From the NCBI GenBank assembly GCA_030531025.1, contig JAUMTV010000054.1, positions 1 through 22,198 of the forward strand: 22,198 nt of DNA, written 5' to 3'. The notes beneath the pieces are model-generated. The model was not told where the DNA came from and searched no databases. It worked only from the letters and a program-made list of their open reading frames with translations. Both the position numbers and the translations under genes were made by a program. The stretch comes from Turicibacter sp. (GTDB lineage Bacteria > Bacillota > Bacilli > MOL361 > Turicibacteraceae). Below, piece after piece: positions 2,001 to 19,580 of this stretch (positions within the stretch are counted from its first letter, which is position 1; each line of letters starts with the position of its first letter).

Positions 2001-2967
2001 GATAAAAGTCTTTGTAGAAGCCCATTATGATTTGACGATTGAATCAATGACACCCATCACCCGTAAATCGATGAAAATTAGAGCCTCAAATCATGACTAT
2101 TTATTAAAGGTTACAAGTGGTGATGATGAATTTATTATGAAGCAGCTTTTTGCGTATAAAGCATTATCTCGAAATATTTTACCGATTTATCGTACGAAAG
2201 ATAATGATCATTACGTGCCATGGCGCGATCATTTCTTTTATTTGACAGATTATGTAGAAACGATTCCTTTACCTTTGGAACAACAAATTCATTACTATAT
2301 TGAATTATTAGAAAAATTACACTCAGAAACACAGTTAGAGGTGGATGTGAGTGATGATGAATTACAACGTATTTATAATAAAGATTATAAACGATTGCAA
2401 AATAGCTATGATCAACTGCAAAAAAGCATTGAGGAGTGTGAGTTGCAACGGGATCGCTCGCCTTATGACTGGTACTTTATGATGGTATATCCTATGCTCT
2501 ATACGATGTTACATCATGCTCATGATGAACTGAAAAAGTTTTATGATCTCATTAAACGAGACAAAAAAATGCCAGTGAGTTTAATTCATGGGGATGTCAA
2601 TGTCGCTAATTTATTAGTCACTGAAAAATCAACTTATTTAATTAATTTTGAGAAAAGTATGTTTTCAATTGCTTCATTAGATATGTATTACTTTTTAGAA
2701 AATTATCATGAAGTCCCAGGATTACATTCAATCGTTTTAGATTATGTGAAAAATGAAAAGGCCGCAGCATTGCGGCACTATTTCTTTTTCCGTTCCCTTT
2801 GCATCGATTTAGGCGAACTTCATCAAACATTAAATGATCATTCATTAATTAATATTGCCTTGTTAAATGAATGTATGGCTCCTCACTTATTGGCATTACA
2901 AGTTTATGATCAGTTTAACAAACCCACCACAACAAACCAAGAACCCCCCCAAGGATCAACAACATAA
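1984..2967 (+). CDS. ysxE: YsxE-like spore-coat kinase-fold protein (CotS family)
   Basis: YsxE works with SpoVID in coat encasement in B. subtilis. It belongs to the CotS group, which has an aminoglycoside-phosphotransferase/choline-kinase fold. Here the catalytic-loop motif HGDVNVAN is at residues 202-209. The expected metal-binding Asp of the following D-F-E/G motif is Asn: INFE, with N221. A nucleotide-binding N-lobe is plausible around IMKQL (about residues 51-55). The ATG overlaps the spoVID end by 17 nt, suggesting translational coupling. The tail (from about residue 313) is Thr/Pro/Gln-rich, includes a run of seven C (2944-2950), and is antisense to a small minus-strand ORF. The family call is well supported by order and motif; catalytic activity is doubtful. 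Confidence 0.75.
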   Translation: MANYDEIKVFVEAHYDLTIESMTPITRKSMKIRASNHDYLLKVTSGDDEFIMKQLFAYKALSRNILPIYRTKDNDHYVPWRDHFFYLTDYVETIPLPLEQQIHYYIELLEKLHSETQLEVDVSDDELQRIYNKDYKRLQNSYDQLQKSIEECELQRDRSPYDWYFMMVYPMLYTMLHHAHDELKKFYDLIKRDKKMPVSLIHGDVNVANLLVTEKSTYLINFEKSMFSIASLDMYYFLENYHEVPGLHSIVLDYVKNEKAAALRHYFFFRSLCIDLGELHQTLNDHSLINIALLNECMAPHLLALQVYDQFNKPTTTNQEPPQGSTT

Positions 2968-3094
2968 CGAAATCAAATTGAGAAAATGAAAAGATAATAA
3001 GAAAAAGCTGATAAAAAAATAATAATGAAACGATAGAACGTAATGTTAGTAAGTAGGCTCTAAATCCGCCTCCACCACGACGATAACGCCCCAT
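2915..3094 (-). CDS. Small two-helix membrane protein, 59 aa, unidentified
   Basis: The minus strand reads ATG at 3094-3092 to TAA at 2917-2915. The protein starts MGRYRRGGGGFRAYLLTLRS, a basic glycine-rich head. Two hydrophobic segments follow at about residues 15-38 and 43-58, and it ends GLLWWVC. A strong Shine-Dalgarno, GGGGGTGA, sits 5 nt before the ATG. Upstream, CATAAACTA (minus strand; + positions 3115-3123) resembles the -10 of sigma-E/sigma-K promoters and would give a very short leader. The 3' end overlaps ysxE tail to tail by 53 nt. I do not recognise the family. The strong ribosome site and membrane-protein composition argue that it is real; the overlap argues for caution. Confidence 0.55.
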   Translation of the reverse strand: MGRYRRGGGGFRAYLLTLRSIVSLLFFYQLFLIIFSFSQFDFVMLLILGGVLGLLWWVC

Positions 3095-3231
3095 GTACTC
3101 ACCCCCTATAGTTATAGTTTATGCAACAATAAGGGGGTATAACATTTAGAAAATGAAAATAATGGAATTATTTAGTTTCTTCAGATAAAAAAAGAATTTT
3201 GAGGAATTAATTGTAATTTACTCACCAACTC

Positions 3232-3280
3232 TTGAATAAATTTATTCGTTGTTGTAGAATACTAACATATATATTATGAT
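3232..3280 (+). promoter_or_regulatory. Two overlapping vegetative promoters for the T-box transcript
   Basis: P1 is TTGAAT (3232-3237), 17 nt, TAGAAT (3255-3260). P2 is TTGTAG (3252-3257), 17 nt, TATGAT (3275-3280). Both have ideal sigma-A spacing. P2 would start transcription near 3287, just before the T-box stem I. Confidence 0.55.
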
Positions 3281-3286
3281 AGTTGA

Positions 3287-3528
3287 ACAACAATGACCAG
3301 GAGGAGTAAAAGTTCCCTCGCATTCAAGAGAGAAGTTCAGTTGGTGAAAGAACTTTATGTGATAGCTTTGAAGGTAGCCTGTGAGTTGGGTTTCTGAAAT
3401 AAATTTTAAGTAGGAAATTCCGTTAGCTGCGTTAAAGCATAAAGTGGTAGGTTATCATAAACCTACAATCAAGGTGGTACCGCGGAATTTTAAGCATTTC
3501 GTCCTTATGAGGACGAAATGCTTTTTTT
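3287..3528 (+). promoter_or_regulatory. T-box leader, probably tRNA-Val responsive
   Basis: The conserved T-box sequence AAGGTGGTACCGCGG lies at 3471-3485 and is followed by a terminator hairpin. Stem I features are visible: GGAGGAGTAAAAG near 3300 and AGAGAGAAG and TTGGTGAAAG in the distal loop region. GAAGGTAGCC followed by TGAG marks the specifier region near 3370. In the antiterminator bulge, UGGU would pair with an ACCA tRNA end. That fits tRNA-Val (discriminator A), and GTA is present at the specifier site. Read strictly after GAA, the codon would be GGT (Gly), but tRNA-Gly has discriminator U. The next real gene downstream is valS, although it lies 1.4 kb away. Confidence 0.9.
3494..3528 (+). 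terminator. T-box intrinsic terminator
   Basis: GCATTTCGTCCT and AGGACGAAATGC form a perfect 12-bp stem with loop TATG, followed by seven T. It competes with the antiterminator that contains the T-box sequence. Confidence 0.93.
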
Positions 3529-3748
3529 ATTGGTCCCAAAGACTTTATGCTTAATTTTCATTCAAATGGTGTATCATTTTTAAAAAGATAATTATGCTAA
3601 TGAAATGAAACGAGTTAAGTCATTGTCCGACATTGAATGTGCTTATGTTTAGAACTATCATTAATATTTCTATATGAATTCAATCGTTTGATATGAAAGA
3701 AAATAAAAATTAGCAGTGAACCTTTAATTGTATATGAATTCAACAATT

Positions 3749-3771
3749 TTATAATTCCATAATCCAGGTGG
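3749..3771 (+). repeat. Spaced repeat copy 1 (subtype A)
   Basis: Ends CCATAATCCAGGTGG after TTATAATT. It is identical over 23 bp to copy 4, and both are preceded by ATTCAA two bases before ATT. Confidence 0.85.
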
Positions 3772-3891
3772 TTTGATTTTAATGTTCAGTCTATAGTGCT
3801 GAATCGTCATGTTGAATAACCATTGATTCTCTTCTTACGTTTGAAATCAAAAGGCAAGTTCAGCACAATTTTAATATTAATGAATCAATTT

Positions 3892-3914
3892 TATATAATC
3901 TATTATCCAGGTGG
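3892..3914 (+). repeat. Spaced repeat copy 2 (subtype B)
   Basis: Contains TATAATCTATTATCCAGG followed by TGGTT. It is identical to copy 5 across this stretch and lies 143 bp after copy 1. Confidence 0.85.
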
Positions 3915-4017
3915 TTTATGTGAAATTTGAGGAGCTATTAATATGATTGTGTTTTTGTTCTTAAAGATTGAGATAAAAGTTAGAGTATTAATAGAGAATA
4001 TACGTTATTTAAAGTTT

Positions 4018-4040
4018 TATAAGGTCCGTTATCCAGGTGG
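4018..4040 (+). repeat. Spaced repeat copy 3 (subtype C)
   Basis: TATAAGGTCCG followed by the core TTATCCAGGTGG. It is the most diverged upstream half and lies 126 bp after copy 2. Confidence 0.8.
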
Positions 4041-4139
4041 TCCGATAATAAAAAGTTATTAAGTTAGCTAACAAAGAATAATGATGTTTTCTGCTTTTTT
4101 TCATCCCTAATGAGGAGAAGATACATCAATTCAATCATT

Positions 4140-4162
4140 TTATAATTCCATAATCCAGGTGG
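4140..4162 (+). repeat. Spaced repeat copy 4 (subtype A)
   Basis: Identical over 23 bp to copy 1 and followed by the same TTT. It lies 122 bp after copy 3. Confidence 0.85.
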
Positions 4163-4257
4163 TTTTTATATCCTGTGTTGAATAATGATGAACATTCTTT
4201 TTTAATAAACAAAAAGCCAGAGCGGATAAACAATTATTTATGCATGAGAAGAATTTA

Positions 4258-4280
4258 AATATAATCTATTATCCAGGTGG
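4258..4280 (+). repeat. Spaced repeat copy 5 (subtype B)
   Basis: Shares TATAATCTATTATCCAGG plus TGGTT with copy 2 and lies 118 bp after copy 4. Confidence 0.85.
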
Positions 4281-4581
4281 TTATTTAATAAAATTTAACT
4301 CATTGCAATGGCTTAGCATAACTTGACGCATTGCAATCTTTTAATGAAATAAAAACTCGGTTGATGATCATATAGGAAATATGATTAGAAGTTTCGATCG
4401 TTGGACTTCTGGCGATAGATTTTCTAATTAGATAGCTTTAAAAGGATGCGTGTGTAGTGAACGATGATGCTTAACTAAGGGTTATTGATTAAAGATGATT
4501 AAGATTAAGATGGATACTTCTTTTGATGAAGATAAAAGCTAAGGAAGCTATGAATACAGACGGTACATCATCTAAACATGT

Positions 4582-4604
4582 TATATCATCCATTATCCAG
4601 GTGG
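4582..4604 (+). repeat. Spaced repeat copy 6 (subtype C-like)
   Basis: TATATCATCCA followed by TTATCCAGGTGG. This is the only copy followed by A instead of T. It lies 324 bp after copy 5, with no intermediate copy visible. Confidence 0.8.
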
Positions 4605-4947
4605 ACAAAGCAACTCGTTATTAGAGACATTGACGTCAATTTTTTGTTTAGATATAGGGATTCAATAAATATCATCCATCCATTTGATATTTGTGCAGCT
4701 TCACCAAGTTGTACTAAGATTATTCCACCAACCATTTTTAGTTGAGAACCTATAACTGAATGAGACATTGCTCGTTAAAACGGTACTTTAATTATGAGAT
4801 GCTGAAATACATTATCGATATAAAAGTTTTGGATCCTTTGGTTGTTCAGTTTAATAACTAAACACTTTAGGTTAGATGGTTAAACAATCAGGTTAAAACT
4901 GCTGGAGTTGTTCATCTATCAGAGATTAAGAAAAGGAGGACACTAAA

Positions 4948-7584
4948 ATGACGAAAAACTTAGCACCTAAGTATAATCATTTAGATGTTGAACAAGGTAA
5001 GTATGCATTTTGGTATGAGCAAGATTGCTTCAAAGCGCAACCACAATCAGAAAAACCTAAGTATACAATCGTTATTCCGCCACCAAATGTTACAGGTAAG
5101 TTACACTTAGGGCATGCATGGGATACATCATTACAAGATATCATTATCCGTATGAAACGTATGCAAGGATATGACGCGTTATGGCTACCAGGTATGGACC
5201 ATGCCGGAATTGCGACTCAAGCAAAAGTTGATGCTCGTTTAAAAGAGCAAGGAATTTCACGTTATGATATTGGACGTGAAGCATTCTTAGAAAAAGCTTG
5301 GGAATGGAAAGAAGAATATGCTGGATTCATCCGTCAGCAATGGGAAAAAATGGGGTTATCATTAGATTACTCTCGTGAACGTTTCACATTAGATGAAGGA
5401 TTATCAAAAGCAGTTCGTCGTGTATTCGTTCAGTTATATGAAAAAGGATTAATCTATCGTGGTGAGCGTATCATCAACTGGGATCCAGCTGCGCGTACAG
5501 CCTTATCAGATATCGAAGTTATTCATAAAGAAATTGAAGGGGCATTCTATCACTTTAAATATATGATTGAGGGAACAAATGACTTCTTAGAAGTTGCGAC
5601 AACTCGTCCAGAAACGATGTTTGGAGATGTGGCTGTTGCGGTTCACCCAGAAGATGATCGATATAAAGATTTAATTGGGAAAAATGTCTTAATCCCAGGA
5701 AATAATAAACCAATTCCAGTCATTGCTGATGAGTATGTTGAAATGGATTTTGGAACAGGTGCTGTTAAAATTACACCAGCTCACGATCCAAACGACTTTG
5801 AAGTTGGAAATCGTCATGACTTAGCTCGTCCAATCTGTATGAACTTAGATGGGACAATGAATGAATTAGCAGGTAAATATAGCGGAATGGATCGTTTTGA
5901 TGCTCGCCGTCAATTAGTTGCTGATTTACAAGAAGCGGGATTAGTTGTAAAAATTGAAAAGCATGTTCACTCAGTAGGACACTCTGAGCGTACAGATGTA
6001 GTCGTTGAGCCATACTTATCGACACAATGGTTCGTTAAGATGGAAGAATTAGCTGCACGTTCTGTTGCTAATCAATCAACTGATAATAAAGTAAACTTCG
6101 TACCAGAACGCTTTGAAAATACGTTCTTACGTTGGATGGAAAACATTCATGACTGGTGTATTTCACGTCAGTTATGGTGGGGACACCAAATTCCAGCTTG
6201 GTATCATAAAGAAACAGGTGAAATGTACGTAGGTGAAGAGGCTCCAGCAGATCTTGAAAACTGGAACCAAGACGAAGACGTATTAGATACATGGTTCTCA
6301 TCAGCTTTATGGCCATTTACAACACTTGGTTGGCCAGATGTTGAGTGTGAAGACTTTAAAGCGTACTTCCCAACAGATACATTAGTTACTGGATATGACA
6401 TCATCTTCTTCTGGGTATCTCGTATGATTTTCCAAAGTTTAGAGTTCACAGATGAGCGTCCATTCAAAAACGTGTTAATCCACGGATTAGTGCGTGATGC
6501 TGAAGGGCGTAAAATGAGTAAATCATTAGGTAACGGGGTTGACCCAATGGATGTTATTGAGAAATACGGAGCAGATAGCTTACGTTACTTCTTAACAACA
6601 AACTCAGCACCAGGTCAAGACTTACGTTATATTGAAGAAAAAGTAGAATCAACATGGAACTTCATTAACAAAATCTGGAACGCTTCACGTTTCGTCATTA
6701 TGAATTTAGATGGAATGACTTGCGAAGATGTGAAGTTAGAAGAAGCAACATTAAATGTTGCGGATCAATGGATCTTAGGACGTTTAAATGAAACAATCGA
6801 GGCTATCAACTACAATGCTGATAAATTCGAATTCGGTGAAGTCGGACGTCATTTATATAACTTCATCTGGGAAGACTTCTGTAACTGGTATATTGAAATG
6901 GCGAAGTTACCATTACAAGGTGAAGATGAACAAGCCAAACGTTCAACTCGTATGGTCTTAACTTACGTGTTAGAATCAATCGTGAAATTATTACACCCAT
7001 TCATGCCATTCGTAACAGAAGAAATCTATCAAATGATTACTCGTGAAAATACAGCATGTGCGGTAGCTGCTTGGCCAGTTGTTAAACCAGAGTATAACAA
7101 TGAAAAAGCAATCAATAACTTCGCGTTATTAATGGACATCATCCGTTCAGTACGTAACATCCGTGCAGAAGTTGATGCTCCAATGAGCAAACAAATCCGT
7201 ATCTTTATCAATGCTAAATCAGGAGAGGTATTAGAAAACTTAAGTGCAAACCAAGCCTACTTAAAGCGTTTCTGTAACCCAAGCGAATTAGTGATTGAAA
7301 AAGATTTAACAGTAGAAGAAGAAACAATGACAGCCGTTGTTACAGGAGCTGACATCTTCTTACCAACTGAAGGGTTAATCGATGTAAGTGCTGAAATCGA
7401 ACGTTTAAAAAATGAGCTTAAAAAATTAGCTGCAGAAGTAAAACGTGGAGAATCAAAACTTTCAAATGAAAAATTCGTTGCTAAAGCACCAGCTCACTTA
7501 GTAGAAGAAGAACGTAATAAGTTAGCGGATTACAAAGAAAAATATGCAACAGTTGAGGCTCGCTTAGCTCAATTAGAAAAATAA
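4948..7584 (+). CDS. valS: Valyl-tRNA synthetase
   Basis: Charges tRNA-Val with valine in the cytoplasm; a class I aminoacyl-tRNA synthetase. The length of 878 aa is typical of bacterial ValRS. The HIGH-type motif is HLGH at residues 53-56, following PPPNVTGK, and the KMSKS loop is at 522-526. The editing domain includes [13 protein letters not shown]. The C-terminal coiled-coil arm, rich in Lys/Glu, covers roughly residues 810-878. A strong AAAGGAGG site lies 9 nt before the ATG. A T-box leader is upstream but unusually distant. An intrinsic terminator follows directly. The folC neighbour downstream is the Bacillus order. Confidence 0.98.
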
Positions 7585-11639: not shown

Positions 11640-13223
11640 ATGTGTGGATTTATGGTTTATACAGCCAATGATATTAAGGTGGAAGACTTCGAAGAAAGTT
11701 TTATCCGAATTTCGTATCGAGGACCAGACTTTTGTATCATTCAAAATCGTGAACGAGGGTTATGGGGATTTCATCGGTTATCTATTATGGGATTAACTGA
11801 GTCAGGGAACCAACCCTTTGAACTTCATAATAATTTAGTCGTTTGTAATGGAGAAATTTATGGTTATAAAAAAATACGAGAACAATTAAGTCCTCAATAT
11901 GTCTTTGAATCAGACAGCGATTGTGAAGTGATTTTACCACTTTATGAAAAATACGGATTAGACTTTTTTAAAAAGTTAGATGCGGAATTTGCTTTAGTCA
12001 TTTATGATGCTAAGAAAGATGATTTTATTGCCGGAAGGGACCCGATTGGAATTCGTCCACTTTTTTATGGTTATTCAAAAAATAGTCATAAAATTATGTT
12101 TGCTTCAGAAGCAAAAGCATTAGTTGAGTTATGCAGTGAAGTTCATCCATTTCCACCAGGATATTATTATGCTAATGGATGTTTTACTTGCTATTACGAT
12201 GCAGCACAATCATCAGGATATTATAATGGTAGTCTCGAAGAGGTGACAAAAGAAATTAAAGAGCGTTTAATTGAAGGCGTTCGTAAACGATTAGATGCTG
12301 ATGTTCCAGTTGGATTTTTATTAAGTGGAGGCTTAGACTCTAGTTTAGTGTGTAGTATTGCCTCAAAAATTTTGAATCAACCGATTAAAACGTTTGCTAT
12401 TGGAATGGAAAGTGATGCGATTGATTTGAAATATGCAAAAGAAGTTGCTGATTATATTGGATCAGATCATAGTGAAGTGATTATTACAAAAGATGATGTC
12501 ATTAATTGTTTGGAAGAAGTCATTTATATTTTAGAAACTTATGACATTACAACGATTCGCGCTTCTATAGGAATGTATTTATTATGTAAAGCGATTCGTG
12601 AAAAAACAGATGTAAAAGTTTTATTAACTGGAGAAATTAGTGATGAATTGTTTGGTTATAAATATACAGATTATGCACCAAGTGCCATGGCGTTCCAAGA
12701 AGAGTCACAAAAACGAATTCGTGAACTTTACATGTATGATGTCTTACGCGCAGATCGCTGTATTTCTGCCAATTCTATTGAAGCGCGTGTTCCATTTGGT
12801 GATCTAGCTTTTGTTGATTATGTGATTGGGCTTAATCCACAACTTAAATTAAATAGATATAATAAAGGTAAATATTTGTTACGCCGAGCTTTTGTTGGTG
12901 ACTATTTACCAGAAAGTATTTTAATGCGCGAAAAAGCAGCATTTTCAGATGCAGTCGGTCATTCTTTAGTAGATATTTTAAAAGAATATGCAGAATCAAA
13001 ATATACAGATGAAGAATTTGAAAGAAAAGTGAAGCAATATAAAGGGGATTGTGTTCCATTCACAAAAGAGTCATTACTTTATCGCGAAATTTTTGATAGC
13101 TACTTTAATGGGTATGCAAAATGGATTAAAGATTATTGGATGCCAAATAAAGAATGGGAAGGGTGCAATGTCTTAGATCCTAGTGCTCGGGTATTAGCTA
13201 ACTATGGAGATAGTGGAAAATAA
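11640..13223 (+). CDS. asnB: Asparagine synthase (glutamine-hydrolysing), AsnB type
   Basis: Makes asparagine from aspartate, ATP and glutamine. The N-terminal Ntn glutaminase domain starts with catalytic Cys2 (MCGF). R46 (FHRLSI), N70 (NGEIYG) and D94 (SDSDCEV) are at the expected glutamine-binding places. The synthetase domain has the PPi loop SGGLDSS at 229-235 and LLTGEISDELFGYKY further on. At 527 aa it is close to the E. coli AsnB length, so it is complete. The GAAGGGGG site lies before the ATG. Some AsnB-like proteins amidate peptidoglycan or natural products instead; the sequence alone does not exclude that. The GNAT gene begins 22 nt later, probably in the same operon. Confidence 0.93.
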   Translation: MCGFMVYTANDIKVEDFEESFIRISYRGPDFCIIQNRERGLWGFHRLSIMGLTESGNQPFELHNNLVVCNGEIYGYKKIREQLSPQYVFESDSDCEVILPLYEKYGLDFFKKLDAEFALVIYDAKKDDFIAGRDPIGIRPLFYGYSKNSHKIMFASEAKALVELCSEVHPFPPGYYYANGCFTCYYDAAQSSGYYNGSLEEVTKEIKERLIEGVRKRLDADVPVGFLLSGGLDSSLVCSIASKILNQPIKTFAIGMESDAIDLKYAKEVADYIGSDHSEVIITKDDVINCLEEVIYILETYDITTIRASIGMYLLCKAIREKTDVKVLLTGEISDELFGYKYTDYAPSAMAFQEESQKRIRELYMYDVLRADRCISANSIEARVPFGDLAFVDYVIGLNPQLKLNRYNKGKYLLRRAFVGDYLPESILMREKAAFSDAVGHSLVDILKEYAESKYTDEEFERKVKQYKGDCVPFTKESLLYREIFDSYFNGYAKWIKDYWMPNKEWEGCNVLDPSARVLANYGDSGK

Positions 13224-19471: not shown

Positions 19472-19560
19472 ATGTTGTTAGCACCTTAGGGTACTACAAC
19501 CGCACGGATAAGGTCAAAATATGTCACTGACATATACCTTTAATGGCGAGTCTTAGTTAA
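19472..19560 (+). promoter_or_regulatory. Structured leader of rplU (L21-leader type)
   Basis: The transcript between promoter and rplU carries two evident hairpins. GTTGT-AG pairs with CT-ACAAC around CACCTTAGGGTA. AAGGT and ATATGTC pair with GACATAT and ACCTT around ACT. Firmicute rplU operons often have a conserved L21 leader thought to mediate autoregulation; position and structure fit, but I cannot confirm the covariance match here. Confidence 0.7.
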
Positions 19561-19580
19561 ATTTTAAGGAGGTGCAGGTA

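Follow-up and report, generated by a model that had tools for sequence, protein, structure and literature searches.

A spaced array of conserved-loop hairpins lies between the T-box and valS in Turicibacter

Introduction

Several described systems are relevant to repeated structured elements located ahead of a bacterial gene for an aminoacyl-tRNA synthetase. T-boxes bind the NCCA terminus of tRNA through UGGN and are themselves identified, at sequence level, by the UGGN bulge together with ACCGCG, while the thrS operator of Escherichia coli represents an autoregulatory aminoacyl-tRNA synthetase leader. In CsrB and RsmZ, GGA motifs located in hairpin loops are bound by CsrA. REP, BIME and MITE elements are short imperfect palindromes present in several copies in bacterial intergenic regions, and the DnaA box has the sequence TTATCCACA. 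Here we describe a Turicibacter valS locus in which six copies of a short motif, noticed in an earlier note on this DNA, are situated within the valS leader; the T-box upstream of these copies, and their position as a group at the tips of hairpins, were absent from that note.

Results

In the window, valS is preceded by a T-box and an unusually long leader

The window (the whole stretch of DNA that was analysed: 22,198 nucleotides, contig JAUMTV010000054.1 of the Turicibacter sp. assembly GCA_030531025.1) contains the following elements that delimit the leader:

3284..3509, + strand: T-box leader (RF00230) of valS, 140.1 bits in cmscan (gathering score 93)
3492..3523, + strand: intrinsic terminator of the valS T-box, a 14-bp stem with arms that are 100% complementary, followed by a T-run
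4948..7584, + strand: valS, encoding valyl-tRNA synthetase (878 aa), with its closest relative in Turicibacter sp. UBA7094 (locus L001, 96% identity)

The next relatives of this ValS (L002, 84% identity; L003, 76%) are both named Turicibacter. The T-box core is separated from valS by about 1.5 kb in the window, as compared to 73-674 nt (median 110) at 75 other Bacilli valS loci. These originate from a survey of 80 valS loci, in 76 of which a T-box core was found within 2.6 kb (the 75 other loci plus L001, where valS begins 1978 nt past the core). The core was absent ahead of valS in L002 and L003, which are termite-gut relatives (within 1699 and 2600 nt upstream, respectively), in L066, and in L010, where the upstream DNA amounts to 27 nt only. 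The long gap is specific to valS, since 28 other T-boxes of the Turicibacter genomes G004 and G005 lie 54-596 nt from the first ORF (taken mechanically as an ORF of at least 80 aa) and are free of the motif described below, with no match within one mismatch in the approximately 3 kb searched near them.

Between the terminator and valS there are twelve ORFs of 30-60 aa and none of at least 80 aa, for which reason a coding remnant, or decayed gene, was rejected. Internal promoters were likewise rejected, as the number of promoter-like matches in 2900-5000, 14, does not stand out from the 12.0 expected by chance (sd 4.2); the sequence TATAAT stands upstream of several array copies.

Six motif copies are spaced through the leader

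Six exact copies of TWATCCAGGTGG are present between 3760 and 4604, all on the sense strand, with cores starting at 3760, 3903, 4029, 4151, 4269 and 4593. Since the T-box terminator ends upstream (3523) and valS starts downstream (4948), the array is part of the valS leader. Each copy is associated with a hairpin, listed here with its score against model R1 (see below), a model in which all six copies are themselves included:

3743..3784, + strand: array hairpin 1, CCA / loop TAATCCAGG / TGG; 43.6 bits
3886..3927, + strand: array hairpin 2, CTA / loop TTATCCAGG / TGG; 44.9 bits
4012..4053, + strand: array hairpin 3, CCG / loop TTATCCAGG / TGG, weak outer stem; 37.1 bits
4134..4175, + strand: array hairpin 4, weak outer stem; 44.1 bits
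4252..4293, + strand: array hairpin 5; 37.6 bits
4576..4617, + strand: array hairpin 6, the last one, weak outer stem; 33.0 bits

Hairpin 2 has a long stem, with its own arms ranked first as partners and a fold of -24.7 kcal/mol over 94 nt; the outer stem of hairpin 1 is weak, its own arms ranking 15th among 28 partners. No further exact or one-mismatch core copies occur in the 22-kb window. At up to two mismatches the core has 12 matches as opposed to 1.74 expected, a number reached by none of 100 shuffles.

These data agree with the six spaced copies of the earlier note, whose 23-mers start 11 nt before the cores, with the spacings it gave, and with its pairing of copies 1 and 4 (91% similarity over 44 nt) and 2 and 5 (86% over 35 nt). 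Its A-B-C-A-B-C order stands for A/A' and B/B', which recur at offsets of 391 and 366 (the stretch TGTTGAATAA also recurs at offset 366), but the C/C' pairing has no support. In the 35-nt stretch used for copies 2 and 5, copies 3 and 6 are only 66% and 71% similar to copy 2. The proposal made from this order, that a block of three units was duplicated long ago, is retained in the same part: A/A' and B/B' look duplicated, and a decayed A' is found in G007. The location upstream of valS is true in that the array precedes the gene, and is corrected to a location within the valS leader, past T-box and terminator. A CRISPR array, which the note had considered dissimilar, is rejected on account of the uneven spacings (118-324), the mere ~12 nt common to all copies and the lack of a full-length repeat.

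The motif is maintained in five of six Turicibacter valS leaders

Six valS leaders were compared, namely those of the window, G001, G004, G005, G006 and G007, which contain 6, 6, 5, 7, 0 and 4 copies, respectively. All 28 copies in the five array-bearing leaders are in sense orientation, with none antisense, and in each of these five (the window and four relatives) the array is preceded by a T-box. Across these five leaders TCCAGGTGG is found 28 times exactly, never with one mismatch and twice with two mismatches (both in G004); this count disregards 60 nt at the start and 40 nt at the end of each leader cut. Since copies were gathered by exact string, the evidential weight lies in the absence of near-misses.

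In alignments of orthologous leaders, motif columns are identical at 60 of 72 positions (window-G007) and 68 of 72 (G001-G005), as against 920 of 1323 and 1132 of 1843 columns elsewhere. Eleven of the twelve window-G007 motif-column differences stem from two copies decayed in G007, where the four others are exact: at the place of window hairpin 4 (A') G007 possesses a decayed copy, and at that of hairpin 6 no recognisable copy. Because the loop was kept while the surrounding DNA drifted, an independent regulatory function of the loop is probable. The previous suggestion that the motif itself is selected is thus supported (28 exact copies and no one-mismatch copies, with non-motif columns 61% and 70% identical in two leader pairs), as are conservation of the core in close relatives (exact copies in four relatives' valS leaders) and a variable copy number (4-7 among array-bearing leaders); that the array would always precede valS holds for five of the six Turicibacter leaders, and fails for G006.

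G006 has a T-box, and its leader cut measures 357 nt compared with 1396-2043 nt in the other five. In the valS tree G006 branches first, with support of 98/99 for the other five, and the root is unsure because it rests on two long outgroup branches. This distribution fits a single gain of the array in a common ancestor of the other five, or else its loss from G006.

Motif copies form the tips of imperfect hairpins

That the motif copies constitute, as a group, the tips of imperfect hairpins or palindromes is well supported. The complementarity of each copy's own 5' and 3' arms averages 12.79, as opposed to 8.96 (sd 0.65) when the 3' arms are swapped among copies, with none of 5000 shuffles reaching the real value, and as opposed to 7.09 at 5843 other leader positions (sd of resampled means 0.64; 0 of 20,000). 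An inner YYR/UGG triple, fully paired in 26 of the 28 copies, encloses the loop NNNUCCAGG; its 5' side reads CCA in 18 copies, and eight of the other ten still pair by means of G-U. The loop triplet ahead of TCCAGG is variable (TTA 12, AAA 12, TAA 2, TGG 1, ACA 1). When 94-nt pieces are folded to minimum energy, the inner triple is complete in 18 copies and at least one of its pairs forms in 21; own arms are ranked first of 28 in six copies only.

Alignment A1 and the model R1 encompass 25 of the 28 copies, with three G004 copies beside an inserted palindrome having been left out. In A1, 66.5% of the cells of the hairpin structure are paired, a share that drops to 38-49% upon sliding the 3' arm by 1-3 columns. 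Letter shuffles of A1 match the real value in 27 of 500 cases for paired cells and 16 of 500 for the covariation score, a modest signal, and in 7 of 500 for cells changed on both sides; no signal is seen for pairs changed on both sides (359 of 500) or pair types (222 of 500). RNAalifold did not recover the hairpin from A1, returning two other pairs instead (CC/GG within the core). Consensus folds of ten orthologous pairs gave z scores of -7.9 and -3.6 in two cases and -1.4 to 0.8 in eight.

With regard to the strand on which the structure acts, arm complementarity shows no preference, being equally strong in antisense (z 6.05 versus 6.11), while the mean folding z is -0.9 in sense and -0.25 in antisense; an enrichment of G-T over A-C is not clear (32 versus 20, with 30 versus 23 in swapped controls). 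The array could accordingly operate at DNA level, as directional protein sites or single-strand hairpins that stand before valS by happenstance, a reading to which the lack of sense-strand preference and the copies located upstream of tilS in G007 and G004 lend some weight. We nonetheless judge it rather improbable, since all 28 copies are in sense orientation and eight of ten altered inner triples pair via G-U on the sense strand. From orientation, position in the leader and the inner-triple changes we infer that RNA is the functional form.

Shine-Dalgarno/start sites or leader peptides were considered and not retained; a start codon is located 4-11 nt past AGGTGG in 8 of the 28 copies.

Resemblance of the motif to the T-box antiterminator

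The AGGTGG sequence is present in the array copies, followed by ACCGCG in none of the 28. Window copies 1 and 4 read AATCCAGGTGGT, a sequence also common in relatives; it agrees with AATCAAGGTGGT of the window's valS T-box in 11 of 12 positions, a level that 2 of 2000 T-box letter shuffles attain. In addition, a T follows TGG in 23 of 28 copies and an A in four. The hairpins may therefore be T-box-derived sites for the tRNA acceptor end, copying the antiterminator strand and serving as decoys or extra sensors: UGGU would base-pair with the terminal ACCA of uncharged tRNA-Val, and this tRNA would displace a stand-in, namely the CCA present on the cis strand in 18 copies. Beside the copies neither the ACCGCG half of the antiterminator nor its CCTT partner is present, Rfam yields no T-box match there, and the invariant UCC of the loop is left unexplained, which makes this reading unlikely, although the 11/12 match and the excess of T after TGG keep it alive.

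A second conserved element is located between the array and valS

4657..4726, + strand: 3' element, bounded by GGGAT/ATTCC (4657-4661 and 4722-4726), with the conserved sequence GATTATTCC at 4718-4726

In the window this element contains a hairpin formed by ATATCA/TGATAT and a second one with a CACC loop (4702-4705); the GGGAT/ATTCC and ATATCA/TGATAT helices were recognised by eye and in single-sequence folds only. G001, G004 and G005 each contain two or three such elements, and array and 3' element occur together in five leaders, G006 being devoid of both. The CACC-hairpin arms have a complementarity of 15.56 compared with 9.99 (sd 1.41), reached by 2 of 40,320 permutations, the own order included. 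Among the eight elements tested the loop is CACC in seven and CTTC in one (G004), with two of ten GATTATTC-type elements, which do not have a CACC-type loop, excluded from this arm test and from the quick alignment A2, and with matches before leader position 1000 (one, at position 726 in G004) excluded from the collection. RNAalifold on A2 produced no consensus.

Since CAC can be taken for a valine anticodon in certain loops of 7 nt, the CACC loop was considered as an anticodon mimic; this was dropped because loop size and register vary between leaders. The loop could instead take part in folding in cis, whereby GGUGG of the array loops and YCACC of the 3' element, which are able to pair over 5 bp, form mutually exclusive kissing interactions that set the shape of the leader, its translation or its stability. 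Seven of the eight tested elements carry CACC in a loop whose hairpin is backed by arm fit, and array and element are jointly present in five leaders and jointly missing in G006. Set against this are the CTTC of one G004 element, a chance of a few per cent (rough estimate) for a match of such length, the absence of an RNAalifold consensus for the 3' element, and the fact that UGG is already paired in the array hairpin; covariation is uninformative here, as both loops are nearly invariant. We regard such folding as doubtful.

The array is restricted to Turicibacter within the genomes searched

Within the genus, model R1 matches at more than 30 bits in valS leaders and at one other place, upstream of tilS in G007, the few other matches being weak (22-26 bits). 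At the level of the order four of eight genomes match, all of them array-bearing, and among 395 genomes of the class matches were obtained in four Turicibacter genomes and, singly, in three others (E 0.004-0.007); the latter are at chance level, approximately four being expected at E 0.01. Weak copies can escape the class search, in which 16 candidates per genome were scored as compared to 150 in the genus and order searches. The array is therefore restricted to Turicibacter within the genomes searched.

None of the 4227 Rfam models matches the array region at gathering score, either in the window or in the other loci scanned. The T-box model RF00230 matches only 3284-3509, and the array is free of T-box matches at a threshold as loose as E<=10. 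Elsewhere, Rfam detects a ribosomal protein L21 leader at 19488-19563 of the window (RF00559, 51.6 bits) and a RAGATH-18 RNA at 12612-12685 (-) of L001 (RF03064, 56.8 bits). The phage and plasmid collections contain no array match, so that in these and in Rfam the array belongs to no named repeat family, as the earlier note had supposed. Viral contigs contain no match to a 22-mer, and scattered single exact matches to two 16-mers (27 and 23). No title on the array was found in the titles and abstract openings of the literature matches listed, nor was Turicibacter found in the accessible portions of two surveys of non-coding RNA (PMC8632094, PMC11109978).

The pattern WATCCAGGTGG has 38 matches in five genomes, 20 of which are located in valS leaders (placed by coordinates); five of the 18 others were inspected (L133, L134, L136-L138). 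A phage, plasmid or mobile repeat was rejected given this concentration in valS leaders and the absence of plasmid and phage matches. A non-adaptive or selfish repeat, the copies of which are kept alike by recombination, would be in keeping with the expansion of repeats in G004, where palindromic units lie beside three of five motif copies, and with the duplicated appearance of A/A' and B/B'. Conversion should, however, spread the spacers too, whereas likeness is mainly in the motif; moreover, decay has affected two copies in G007 and left four exact, and matches of both R1 and the pattern concentrate at valS. We consider this explanation improbable.

Repeats in the G004 valS leader and upstream of tilS

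In the G004 valS leader (L114 ~1000-1960, -) palindromic units (CATACCCTACC...GGTAGGGAACCCAT) are located beside three of five motifs, at the same place in each, and recur farther on without the motif.

The region upstream of tilS is readable in four genomes (that of G001 is cut by a contig end), and in all four it contains very long arrays of 73-85-nt units: G007 (L133, ~2450-5160), G004 (L151/L134), G005 (L149) and G006 (L142), for which a tandem-repeat finder reports 20, 29, 34 + 13 and 14 + 18 copies, respectively. The units of G004, G005 and G007 contain a hairpin with a loop of approximately GTCRGAGYT, for example CAATCAG-AAGTCAGAG-CTGGTTG; those of G006 differ and contain 37 AATCCAG. 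By eye, the locus ends in a conserved 3' piece with GTGTTCGGA, followed by a terminator. There is no Rfam match in L133 or L134, and from its sequence the locus looks like a giant repeat RNA without a family name.

Between these repeats and tilS a valS-type hairpin (TATAG-TCA-loop-TGG-T-TATA) is situated in L133 at 2866 (-) and in L134 at 1963 (-), scoring 32.9 bits (G007) and 24.9 bits (G004) against R1. In G005 a gene resembling an IS200/IS605-type transposase (by eye) lies between repeat locus and tilS (L149 ~555-1005, -), and an 85-nt unit is present in 4.6 near-identical copies at L149 1407-1801.

Discussion

The explanation that we tentatively favour, and hold with limited confidence, is that the array would act, in the form of RNA, as a multivalent hairpin platform that is gated by the T-box and presented to a trans-acting factor. 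Uncharged tRNA-Val would cause read-through of the T-box terminator and thereby production of the long untranslated valS leader RNA, unless an internal promoter is used. The 4-7 hairpins, each showing the one loop NNNUCCAGG closed by YYR/UGG, would then constitute repeated docking sites for a single partner acting in trans, for which an RNA-binding protein is the most likely candidate; the array would function either as an operator on the valS mRNA or as a starvation-induced sponge. Many identical docking sites on one RNA would be expected to show repetition, a fixed loop, differing stems and a variable copy number. Such a platform finds support in the presence of the array in five of six leaders and behind a T-box in each of the five, the all-sense orientation of the copies, the lack of one-mismatch copies, the long gap peculiar to valS, the arm fit, the loss of pairing when the 3' arm is slid and the YYR/UGG pairing. 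Against it count the fact that G006 lives without the array, the equal arm complementarity on the two strands, the weak folding scores, the incomplete inner pairing in minimum-energy folds, the low rank of own arms in most copies, the failure of RNAalifold to recover the hairpin, the letter-shuffle results and the absence of CsrA from five genomes.

The same loop next to a second repeat-rich locus, that of tilS, suggests a shared binding partner. A more speculative extension, which we think unlikely as a whole, is that valine shortage induces a multi-hairpin RNA of 1.4-2 kb whose UCCAGG loops capture a Turicibacter-specific partner, perhaps shared with the tilS repeat RNA. If true, tRNA charging would be linked to a lineage-specific RNA network through that partner. 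An insert of 1.4-2 kb with conserved hairpins in one gut genus speaks for a second regulatory layer on a synthetase gene, or for a regulatory RNA produced upon amino-acid starvation.

Comparison with known systems

DnaA box clusters resemble the array in their spaced sites, and four of the six window copies begin with TTATCCA; DnaA boxes were rejected because the TTA part is not conserved, most copies of G001 and G005 reading AAATCCAGG. Leaders of the thrS type, in which a synthetase gene is likewise preceded by a structured element, differ in that the array consists of 4-7 copies of one hairpin with no tRNA-like fold established. The T-box (RF00230) lies next to the array on the same strand and has AATC-AGGTGGT in common with the motif (11 of 12 positions), but the array is located past the terminator and has no match to this family.

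The sponge RNAs CsrB, CsrC and RsmZ are alike in displaying many hairpins with one conserved loop on differing stems. In the array, the existence of several hairpins with one loop is supported as a group property, and their position suggests that they are on one RNA. The array loop, NNNUCCAGG followed by UGG, is not of the GGA type, and CsrA (PF02599) was found in none of five Turicibacter genomes, with control matches in E. coli, B. subtilis and Thermotoga maritima; a CsrA sponge was therefore rejected, and CsrA is unlikely to be the partner. As compared to REP, BIME and MITE elements, the valS array is distinguished by its concentration at one locus and its single orientation, with a conserved loop carried on differing stems.
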